Assembly (NCBI RefSeq): GCF_008033385.1
Contig: NZ_VOGY01000004.1
Coordinates: 248,001-312,000 of the forward strand
Length of the DNA: 64,000 bases
Source: Algibacter pacificus
GTDB taxonomy: Bacteria > Bacteroidota > Bacteroidia > Flavobacteriales > Flavobacteriaceae
Direction: 5' to 3'
Shown: positions 19,540 through 20,724 of the stretch, one piece after another
Layout of the letters: each line of letters opens with the position of its first letter
Position numbering within the stretch: position 1 is the stretch's first letter
The notes under the pieces: model-generated
What the model saw: the letters and a program-made list of their open reading frames with translations, nothing else
Told to the model about the DNA's origin: nothing
Databases searched by the model: none
Position numbers and translations under genes: made by a program

Positions 19540-20388
19540 TTGAGCAAAGAAAAAGAAGCGTATCAAGAATTATCAAATTCATTAGTTGAAACCATTTCAA
19601 ATTCTGATTTAACTAATATTGGAAAAGATATTCTTGACATTGGAGCGGTTAAAATATTAGCAGATGGTCTTGCAAAGAAAACCCCAAGAACGACCTGTTA
19701 CAAATGTATGCGACCCTCCAGCACTTGTATTTGTGAACACATTAGTCCTTTACAGACTAAAACACGCTTTATTATTCTTATGCACCCCAAGGAATACAAA
19801 AAAGAAAAAAGCGGAACGGGACATATAACTCATCTTCAACTTGAAAATTCGGAAATTATAGTTGGTGTCGATTTCACCAATAATAATCGTGTAAATGAAA
19901 TACTAGCTAAAGAAAACAGTGCTTCTTTCTTACTTTATCCCGGGAAGGATAATTTCAACTTATCCACAAGAAAAAATTCTGAAATCAATTCTTATATAGG
20001 TAACAATTCACATATATTCCTTATCGATGGCACATGGCCTTGCGCCCGTAAAATGCTTAAACTAAGTAAGAACTTGCAACAACTAAAACGAGTGAGTTTT
20101 GATAATAAAATTAAATCGAAATTTATTATTAAACAACAGCCAGAGTCGCTTTGCCTTAGTACGATTGAATCTGTTTATACGGTATTAAATTTACTTAAGG
20201 GAAGTAACTTAGAACAATGCGACACGAAAAACTTCCTTATTCCTTTTGAAAAAATGATTGAGCATCAACTCGAATATATGCTAAACCCAAATAATAAAAA
20301 CTATTGTTCTTCTAAGAATGGAGCAATTATTCCTAAAAACAAGTACAAGAAAAATACCGAAAGAAATATTATTTTTGAACAAGAATAG
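19540..20388 (+). CDS. DTW-domain protein, tRNA-uridine aminocarboxypropyltransferase-like
   Basis: The 282-residue protein has the paired cysteines C53/C56 and C63/C65 (CYKCMRPSSTCIC), the strand RFIILMHPKEYKK with GTGHITHLQL, and the DGTW signature at residues 163-166. DTW-domain enzymes of the TapT/TuaA type add the 3-amino-3-carboxypropyl group of SAM to tRNA uridine (acp3U). The start is TTG at 19540, with an in-frame stop at 19525-19527, so a longer version is excluded; the first 50 residues are not part of the conserved domain. A role in tRNA modification agrees with the trmD neighbour. Confidence 0.85.
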   Translation: MSKEKEAYQELSNSLVETISNSDLTNIGKDILDIGAVKILADGLAKKTPRTTCYKCMRPSSTCICEHISPLQTKTRFIILMHPKEYKKEKSGTGHITHLQLENSEIIVGVDFTNNNRVNEILAKENSASFLLYPGKDNFNLSTRKNSEINSYIGNNSHIFLIDGTWPCARKMLKLSKNLQQLKRVSFDNKIKSKFIIKQQPESLCLSTIESVYTVLNLLKGSNLEQCDTKNFLIPFEKMIEHQLEYMLNPNNKNYCSSKNGAIIPKNKYKKNTERNIIFEQE

Positions 20389-20448
20389 ATGTCATGTCTA
20401 TATAGATGGTATTACACCTTTCCTGTAGATAAATGTTGGCAGATAGCT

Positions 20449-20599
20449 GTGTTAAGGATAGCAGCGGCATCCTTTTTGTGAAGCTAAAAAAAAACTTTTT
20501 ATAAATACAGAAACCTTTTTAACGATCTCTAAACACAGAAAAACAAACGAAACACTTCACAAAAAGATATAGCGAATAGCCTGACCCGTAGGGGAACAC
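20449..20599. ncRNA. Candidate structured RNA element between the DTW gene and rplS
   Basis: Within 151 non-coding bases, four pairings nest: a closing stem GTGTT (20449-20453) with AACAC (20595-20599); a hairpin GGAT-A-GC...GCATCC (20456-20472); a 12-base perfect long-range stem (20472-20483 with 20555-20566, CTTTTTGTGAAG/CTTCACAAAAAG) that encloses 71 A-rich bases; and a small CCC-GTA-GGG hairpin (20585-20593). Short G/C-rich words (AGCAGCGGC, AGCGAATAGCC) stand out against AT-rich surroundings. I have an unverified impression that similar elements recur between genes in flavobacteria. Strand and function are not settled. Confidence 0.5.
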
Positions 20600-20641
20600 C
20601 ATAAAAAATAAATTTTTAATTGGATGTATTAAATTATTGAG

Positions 20642-20649
20642 TATATTTG
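20642..20649 (+). promoter_or_regulatory. Bacteroidota-type -7 promoter box of rplS
   Basis: TATATTTG is an exact TAnnTTTG match with a TTGG 18 bases upstream as a partial -33 element. Transcription would start near 20656 and leave a leader of about 70 bases. The flanking string TTTGCAGCCAATTT is shared, apart from the -7 variation, with the rpsF promoter at 33222-33236. Confidence 0.65.
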
Positions 20650-20651
20650 CA

Positions 20652-20724
20652 GCCAATTTCGGGTTAACCTCTGGCGAAAATCGTGAATGTTGTTCTGAAT
20701 TAATAATTAAATAACTATAAAGAT
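20652..20724 (+). promoter_or_regulatory. rplS leader, possible ribosomal-protein autoregulatory RNA
   Basis: The leader contains two mutually exclusive pairings: GCCA (20652-20655) with TGGC (20672-20675), and TTTCG (20657-20661) with CGAAA (20675-20679), the latter enclosing the palindrome GGTTAACC (20662-20669). Leaders in front of flavobacterial ribosomal-protein genes have been described as autoregulatory; whether this one belongs to such a class needs a covariance search. Confidence 0.35.

Follow-up and report, generated by a model that had tools for sequence, protein, structure and literature searches.

Flavo-1 (Rfam accession RF01705) is an RNA family of Bacteroidetes published by Weinberg et al. 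(2010; PMC2864571), whose Table 1 marks it as an RNA ('y') and as neither cis-regulatory ('n') nor a switch ('n'). Rfam gives its type as 'Gene; sRNA', and the family also appears in a list in PMC9029176. In the account that Guerin et al. (2021; PMC9723704) give of F. psychrophilum, Flavo-1 hits seemed to fall indistinctly sense or antisense to transcribed regions and many fell in none; no function thus emerged there. REP and BIME repeats resemble Flavo-1 in that they reach about 100 or more copies, are intergenic and palindromic, are preserved by complementary changes and often lie beside stop codons (PMC2817692, PMC12306157 and PMC3733652). Flavo-1 elements are larger (approximately 80–200 nt, compared with 20–40 bp for REPs; PMC3733652) and form a three-way junction with exchangeable tips rather than a small simple palindrome. 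The cognate Y1 (RAYT) transposase flanked by repeats, which characterizes REP/RAYT systems, was not found for Flavo-1 at 30 loci. The nearest precedent for an activity comes from E. coli, where REPs that lie less than 16 nt from a stop codon are able to stall ribosomes and reduce translation (PMC12306157). A GTAG or CGTC head is a feature of the REP/RAYT repeats, and GTAG REP termini often supply stop codons themselves (PMC3733652).

We analyzed a 64,000-nucleotide window of the Algibacter pacificus genome, in which all features described below lie on the + strand. Two Rfam matches were identified in the window by cmscan, RF01705 and RF03130. Both fall in the gap between a DTW-domain ORF (19,540–20,388, with a TTG start as listed; Pfam accession PF03942, 173.8 bits) and the rplS ORF for ribosomal protein L19 (20,725–21,075; 92–98% identity in four congeners), which measures 336 bases, as an earlier note on this DNA had stated. 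The RF01705 match (20,441–20,590) covers the full model (positions 1–76) and scores 51.5 bits against a gathering cut-off of 42. Judged by its sequence, the window element is one copy of Flavo-1, which it matches in sequence, in its long arm with internal loops and in host range.

The earlier note had proposed that the element was new, a claim that falls to the existing family (RF01705; Weinberg et al., 2010; PMC2864571). Its proposal of a structured element agrees with the match above the cut-off and with covariation among copies, and its suspicion of a repeated family in other flavobacteria is confirmed by copies in the host, in congeners and in genomes from across the phylum. The same cut-off and covarying fold bear out its view that the pairings exceed AT-rich chance; folding energy is by itself merely suggestive (z = −1.93, with 8 of 200 shuffles folding equally well). 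The present analysis adds a fuller fold, a set of tip classes and docking at stop codons. We found no description of the stems named P1 and P3 below, of tip exchange or of stop-codon docking, for Flavo-1 or for repeats of the phylum, in our searches of the open-licence PMC literature.

The whole window element (20,446–20,603) is a three-way junction and scores 77.5 bits (E = 8.6e-16 over the window) with our own model, R1, whose 22 sequences omit the window copy and include the same site from two other genera (L110 and L115). Its closing stem, P1, pairs GTGTT (20,449–20,453) with AACAC (20,595–20,599), after which follows the conserved element end. This is the 5-bp closing stem of the earlier note, and the interval given there (20,449–20,599) coincides exactly with its outer ends. 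The long arm, P2, consists of a 5' arm with two 3x3 internal loops (20,455–20,471, within the word AGCAGCGGCATCC picked out by the earlier note) and a 3' arm (20,566–20,582, equal to its word AGCGAATAGCC). Both arms are drawn as in the Rfam alignment and covary, the 5' arm in helices 2 and 3. The apical stem is the 12-bp perfect long-range stem previously drawn, in which 20,472–20,483 is the perfect complement of 20,555–20,566, although C20472 is unpaired in the consensus. The second pair above its T5/A5 run is U-A, A-U or C-G in copies from the same site.

The apical stem encloses exactly 71 bases, as claimed, which form a hypervariable, A-rich tip loop of the long-tip class (20,484–20,554). 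In congeners, the tips at this site belong to the same length class but differ in sequence, and no second copy of the 71-nt loop was found in the host genome (nothing else below E = 0.28). The small G/C hairpin is also present as P3, a CCC-GTA-GGG side hairpin (20,585–20,593) in which 20,585–20,587 pairs with 20,591–20,593. A 6-bp hairpin with a bulged A, also proposed earlier, can be drawn (20,454–20,459 with 20,469–20,474); it shows no bulge and is not part of the conserved fold. It represents an alternative only, because most of its bases pair with the far arm in that fold.

The same architecture describes the family. The Flavo-1 unit is a three-way junction that comprises the closing stem P1, the long arm P2 with a replaceable tip, and the side hairpin P3. 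The Rfam model covers the long arm and ends inside the element, so that P1 and P3 lie outside it. We drew P1, P2 and P3 on an alignment of 22 short-tip copies (A1, the source of R1), which were selected for a matching P1, a short tip and P3, with 4 of 26 candidates left out. Across the 24 pairs, 97.9% of 528 cells are paired, and 13 pairs and 43 cells are changed on both sides. The corresponding averages for shuffled controls are 88.6% of cells paired and 5.0 pairs and 9.3 cells with two-sided changes; the maxima for slid controls are 60.8%, 6 and 7. The covariation score is 0.277, compared with 0.100 for shuffled alignments (0 of 500 shuffles reach it), and falls to 0.024–0.058 when columns are slid by 1–3.

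All five P1 pairs vary in A1, four of them on both sides, with 100% of cells paired in sequences that were chosen with P1 present. The case for P1 thus rests mainly on an exact-match control: 49 of 63 elements from the host, its relatives and named genera carry the exact P1 complement within 60 nt after the arm, compared with 6.9% (218 of 3146) when P1 is swapped from other elements. A looser rule ('>=4 of 5 pairs within 70 nt') was not relied on, since swapped P1 sequences reach 46%. P3 varies among copies in both length and sequence, with 86.4% of cells paired in its short forms. Homologous copies exist, and their closing stem, arm and apical stem all show compensatory changes, contrary to the refuting outcome named in the earlier note.

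Flavo-1 is abundant where it occurs. We identified at least 104 R1 matches in G001 and at least 92 in G002 (E <= 0.01), both complete congeneric genomes; these counts are lower bounds from 150 candidates scored per genome. In the host, RF01705 gives 40 matches at E <= 0.001, 14 of them over the cut-off, among the best 150 of 1043 candidates scored, and the window copy itself is absent from the host matches listed. Carriers of RF01705 make up 16 of 26 genomes, host included; in a sample of 296 genomes of the phylum, searched under stricter filters, 38 have a match at E <= 1e-6. The Bacteroidota host range and the varying gene neighbors expected of Flavo-1 are thus both observed. The listed copies in G001 look sparse from 3.5 to 4.64 Mb (8 of 81), a stretch that starts at about the estimated terminus.

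Our arm patterns favor three of the four tip kinds described below (A, B and C) and under-count type D and a second frame, TTAGCC...AGCTCCTAAA. This second frame (L010, L011, L055, L056, L219 and L220) apparently has no P3 and resembles the flanks of the Rfam consensus; it may be a distinct subfamily. Two collections were assembled: a 168-element set that includes double detections, and a 137-element set kept by score or P1, in which L086, with a 262-nt 'tip', was judged spurious.

Four kinds of tip occur on one frame. Tip A is a T-run/A-run stem, tip B is AAAGCCCACAGC...GCGAGGACTTG, tip C is TAGCTTTTGGCGAGG... and tip D is GTTGGAGCTCCTC...GAGCGACTGCC. At gathering, tips B, C and D in the loci scanned match no Rfam family, except for one type C copy (L093:322-405) that is recognized as Flavo-1 at 44.5 bits. 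Counted once per site, tips measure 23–65 nt or 93–105 nt and never between (87 sites). The 41 long tips (93–106 nt) have unrelated sequences, except for same-site copies and the L021/L022 pair, and the mean length of 39 of them is 99.9 nt (sd 3.6). These 39 long-tip loops give no fold signal (mean z = −0.22). We rejected the idea that tips act as guides: apart from self-matches and a known sister copy (L022), the inner loops of 13 host long tips gave nothing stronger than one weak hit at E = 0.0018 and noise.

Orthologous sites remain occupied and yet carry a different tip or a different element altogether. Orthology of these within-genus sites was established on one or both flanks. Tip B in L026 corresponds to tip A in four congeners (L072, L196, L209 and L230), all with P1 GAGTT; the 100-nt tip of L003 corresponds to 38-nt tips in three congeners (L197, L212 and L233); the 100-nt tip of L008 in the host corresponds to a 35-nt tip in L262, at sites orthologous on one flank; and tip C in L024 corresponds to tip B in L257. 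No clean empty site was caught among the orthologous sites compared.

Near-identical copies within one genome can have little in common outside the element, so that the element is itself the unit of copying or gene conversion. In G003, the L231/L262 pair and the L254/L255/L256 group are 97–99% identical over 101–106 bp and then diverge; this genome has 7% contamination, and flanks common to both were found for L231 and L262. The L262 element is 98–99% identical to copies located approximately 650 nt upstream of three 16S rRNA genes in the same genome, which points to conversion by paralogues. The copies at these three genes (L254, L255 and L256) point away from them. The host also carries a copy just upstream of tmRNA on the same strand (L049:10038-10121), and two 91%-identical copies (L022 and L021, within L051/L050 at C3:354-393 kb) in inverted order about 40 kb apart. 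The segments adjoining L022 and L021 occur in a different order and orientation in three congeners, as if the repeats had mediated rearrangement.

Several observations connect Flavo-1 with the ends of genes. We examined 111 elements at 81 sites, using one representative per site; the rplS site was excluded, as were 10 elements that lay inside ORFs or at edges, and neighboring genes were called by a simple longest-ORF rule. First, tandem neighbors are antisense at 35 sites and sense at 15 (p = 0.0066); a further 20 sites are convergent and 11 divergent. Second, the median distance from the 3' end of the element to a stop codon on the opposite strand is 16 nt (n = 55), compared with 83 nt from the 5' end to a same-strand stop codon (n = 35; Mann-Whitney p = 2.7e-6). 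A stop codon falls within −15 to 20 nt of the 3' end in 29 of 55 cases and of the 5' end in 3 of 35. Finally, a second rule applied to the same material, using 117 elements with a P1 partner and distinct flanks, places a stop codon within 20 nt at 24 of 63 3' ends and 8 of 56 5' ends. Of the copies that face a stop codon, only about half are near it, and the window copy does not belong to that half. Read in the sense of the gene, close cases typically show the stop codon, a few nucleotides and then TTTGGGCGTTACC.

The reading that we favor, tentatively and with somewhat less than even confidence, is that Flavo-1 is a dispersed, structured intergenic repeat that works like REP elements at transcript ends, and is neither a gene-specific leader nor a stand-alone small RNA gene. 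It is position alone that suggests this role. Like REP elements, Flavo-1 would act where it is transcribed, at the ends of neighboring transcripts. Its 3' end preferentially borders on the stop codon of a gene on the opposite strand, and the mRNA of such a gene would thus reach the folded element only a few nucleotides from its stop. A folded element in this position might hinder exonucleases, end transcripts or slow terminating ribosomes.

Several observations count against this reading, among them the copies distant from a stop codon, the absence of a clean empty site among those compared, and the contamination and shared flanks in G003. A first count of 57 elements that included the rplS site gave tandem neighbors as 14 antisense and 25 sense, with 15 of the 25 coming from the rplS site, and so no clear antisense bias. 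Orthologous sites in different genera have also kept their copies, a persistence for which a purely selfish repeat would have no need. The evidence from strand is mixed. On the Rfam strand, stem mismatches are G-U in 22 cases and A-C in 8 when one copy is taken per site (p = 0.016), mostly in the apical stem; P1 alone gives 3.7 and 2.1 on the same basis, and earlier counts (9 to 3 in P1 and 20 to 3 in apical pairs) shrink to this pooled 22 to 8. A fold of double-stranded DNA would yield equal numbers of G-T and A-C mismatches, and the lean thus favors a single strand, RNA or ssDNA, of the Rfam sense. The abutting genes lie on the opposite strand, so that their mRNA would carry the reverse complement, in tension with this lean.

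An alternative that we consider unlikely, and that nonetheless survives best among those weighed here, is that Flavo-1 is a non-autonomous mobile element only, whose fold serves a trans-acting transposase or recombinase as a substrate, which has no host role and whose positions reflect insertion preference. The copy numbers given above, the patchy distribution across genomes, the copying with sharp borders and the apparent lack of a promoter of its own are all consistent with mobility. Opposing these are the persistence of sites and fold across genera and the results of several searches for a mobilizing partner. Neither G001 (35 listed Flavo-1 copies) nor G003 (43 listed copies) has a Y1/REP-type transposase match at E <= 0.001. 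Of the 37 Y1 matches listed in 26 genomes, 30 were scanned for Flavo-1 arms within approximately 1.5 kb, with arm patterns that fit tips A–C best, and a complete pair was found at one (the hemF fusion, L040). REP-type mobilization as a current partner was accordingly rejected, the Y1_Tnp search of the 26 genomes having given no supporting link.

Two host genes with Y1-like segments were also noted. On contig C3, a hemF gene for coproporphyrinogen III oxidase (L045:1786-3255, − strand; Pfam, 456 bits) lies 1.4 kb from a Flavo-1 copy and has an in-frame N-terminal Y1/IS200-like transposase region (26.7 bits; 22.8 in a repeat search against a cut-off of 23). On contig C2, an Eco57I/MmeI-like methylase of 1306 aa (L046:886-4806, + strand) has a Y1_Tnp segment (residues 629–686, 30.2 bits) inside its methyltransferase region.

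Reverse transcriptases, searched for in the same 26 genomes, had no match in the host (G000), G009, G010 or G016, all of which carry Flavo-1; a requirement for this enzyme was rejected, since the host and at least three other carriers lack a match. A reverse transcriptase of approximately 510 aa adjoins a Flavo-1-like copy in L309 (G004), L310 (G001) and L311 (G002), preceded in L309 and L310 by a gene for a 199-aa protein. We read this adjacency as one ancestral coincidence.

Further results also oppose the mobile-element alternative. Replication-strand bias is absent among the 81 G001 matches listed (41 of 81, from at least 104 in all), with the origin at about 1.3 Mb and the terminus at about 3.6 Mb as estimated from 20 sampled stretches. 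One 88-nt copy used as a query found no match in 72,556 plasmid or 50,697 phage records. Two exact patterns run over viral contigs gave 0 and 4 hits, among which L327 alone is a real copy (58.4 bits); the other three were judged by eye not to be Flavo-1.

It is improbable that Flavo-1 is a family of trans-acting small RNAs in which every copy is a gene, as the Rfam type 'Gene; sRNA' suggests. The lean of wobble pairs toward the Rfam strand accords with that proposal. We searched 133 elements with enough flank for a consensus promoter (TTG-N17-21-TANNTTTG) within 200 nt upstream, and found 2 in sense and 2 on the other strand, none beyond background. The F. psychrophilum hits, seemingly sense or antisense without distinction and many in no transcribed region according to the account in PMC9723704, also argue against it.

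A connection to rplS, as its cis-regulatory leader or as a boundary for its promoter, is more improbable still. The window copy lies in sense, 60 nt past the stop codon of the DTW-domain gene and just upstream of a probable rplS promoter, TTG-N19-TATATTTG (20,620–20,649), read from the sequence by consensus and retained in three aligned congeners (L082, L083 and L085). The TAnnTTTG sequence is the flavobacterial −7 box (PMC9723704). Between the end of the element and the TTG box of this consensus-based promoter are 20 nt, so that the element would lie outside the rplS 5' UTR. The L19-Flavobacteria ribosomal protein leader (RF03130; 47.5 bits against a gathering cut-off of 31.5) shares the intergenic region with the element and is distinct from it, a separate 28-nt hairpin (20,665–20,692) downstream of the promoter. 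With both the probable promoter and the known leader downstream, a link to rplS regulation finds no support, and approximately 100 further copies lie elsewhere.

A copy upstream of rplS is retained in the host and in all four congeners searched, which speaks for a connection, as does an intact copy with some kind of tip in 19 of 80 named rplS loci. Type A copies occur in 13 of the 80 (score >= 24), and type D tips in six (L093, L113, L140, L147, L161 and L164). Remnants were recognized by eye in L091, L095, L096 and L122, and 55 of the 80 have neither arm pattern within 420 nt of rplS, which argues against a leader. In 15 of the 19 intact copies P1 is GTGTT regardless of tip, whereas GCGTT is the most frequent form overall (57 of 137); the tip at this site has thus probably been changed in place.

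A bidirectional transcription terminator, formed in type A by AAGGAT...ATCCTT followed by T5, would fit transcript ends and has its local hairpin and T-run in the window, but is just as improbable as an rplS leader because the T-run is a feature of tip A that is missing from tips B, C and D on the same frame, and because the covarying pairs are the long-range ones.

If the favored reading, a REP-like repeat at transcript ends, is extended beyond Flavo-1, the family could be the best-known branch of a wider Bacteroidota class of modular, RNA-shaped repeats. Members of this class would exchange tips in place, dock their 3' ends on stop codons, exert general control of 3' ends and spread without a REP transposase. 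A single conserved three-way-junction frame would carry the tip module in four or more kinds, among them one whose hypervariable loop stays close to 100 nt. We regard this extension as possible and rather doubtful.

Since 2010, Flavo-1 has been a flavobacterial RNA without a role, and the treatment of its hits in the 2021 transcriptome study assigned none (PMC9723704). The fuller fold, the tip classes and the docking at stop codons provide testable handles: which strand is transcribed, what becomes of the mRNA that meets the element, and what moves the tips. If the repeat sets the 3' ends of many transcripts, it would bear on gene expression across a large bacterial family.
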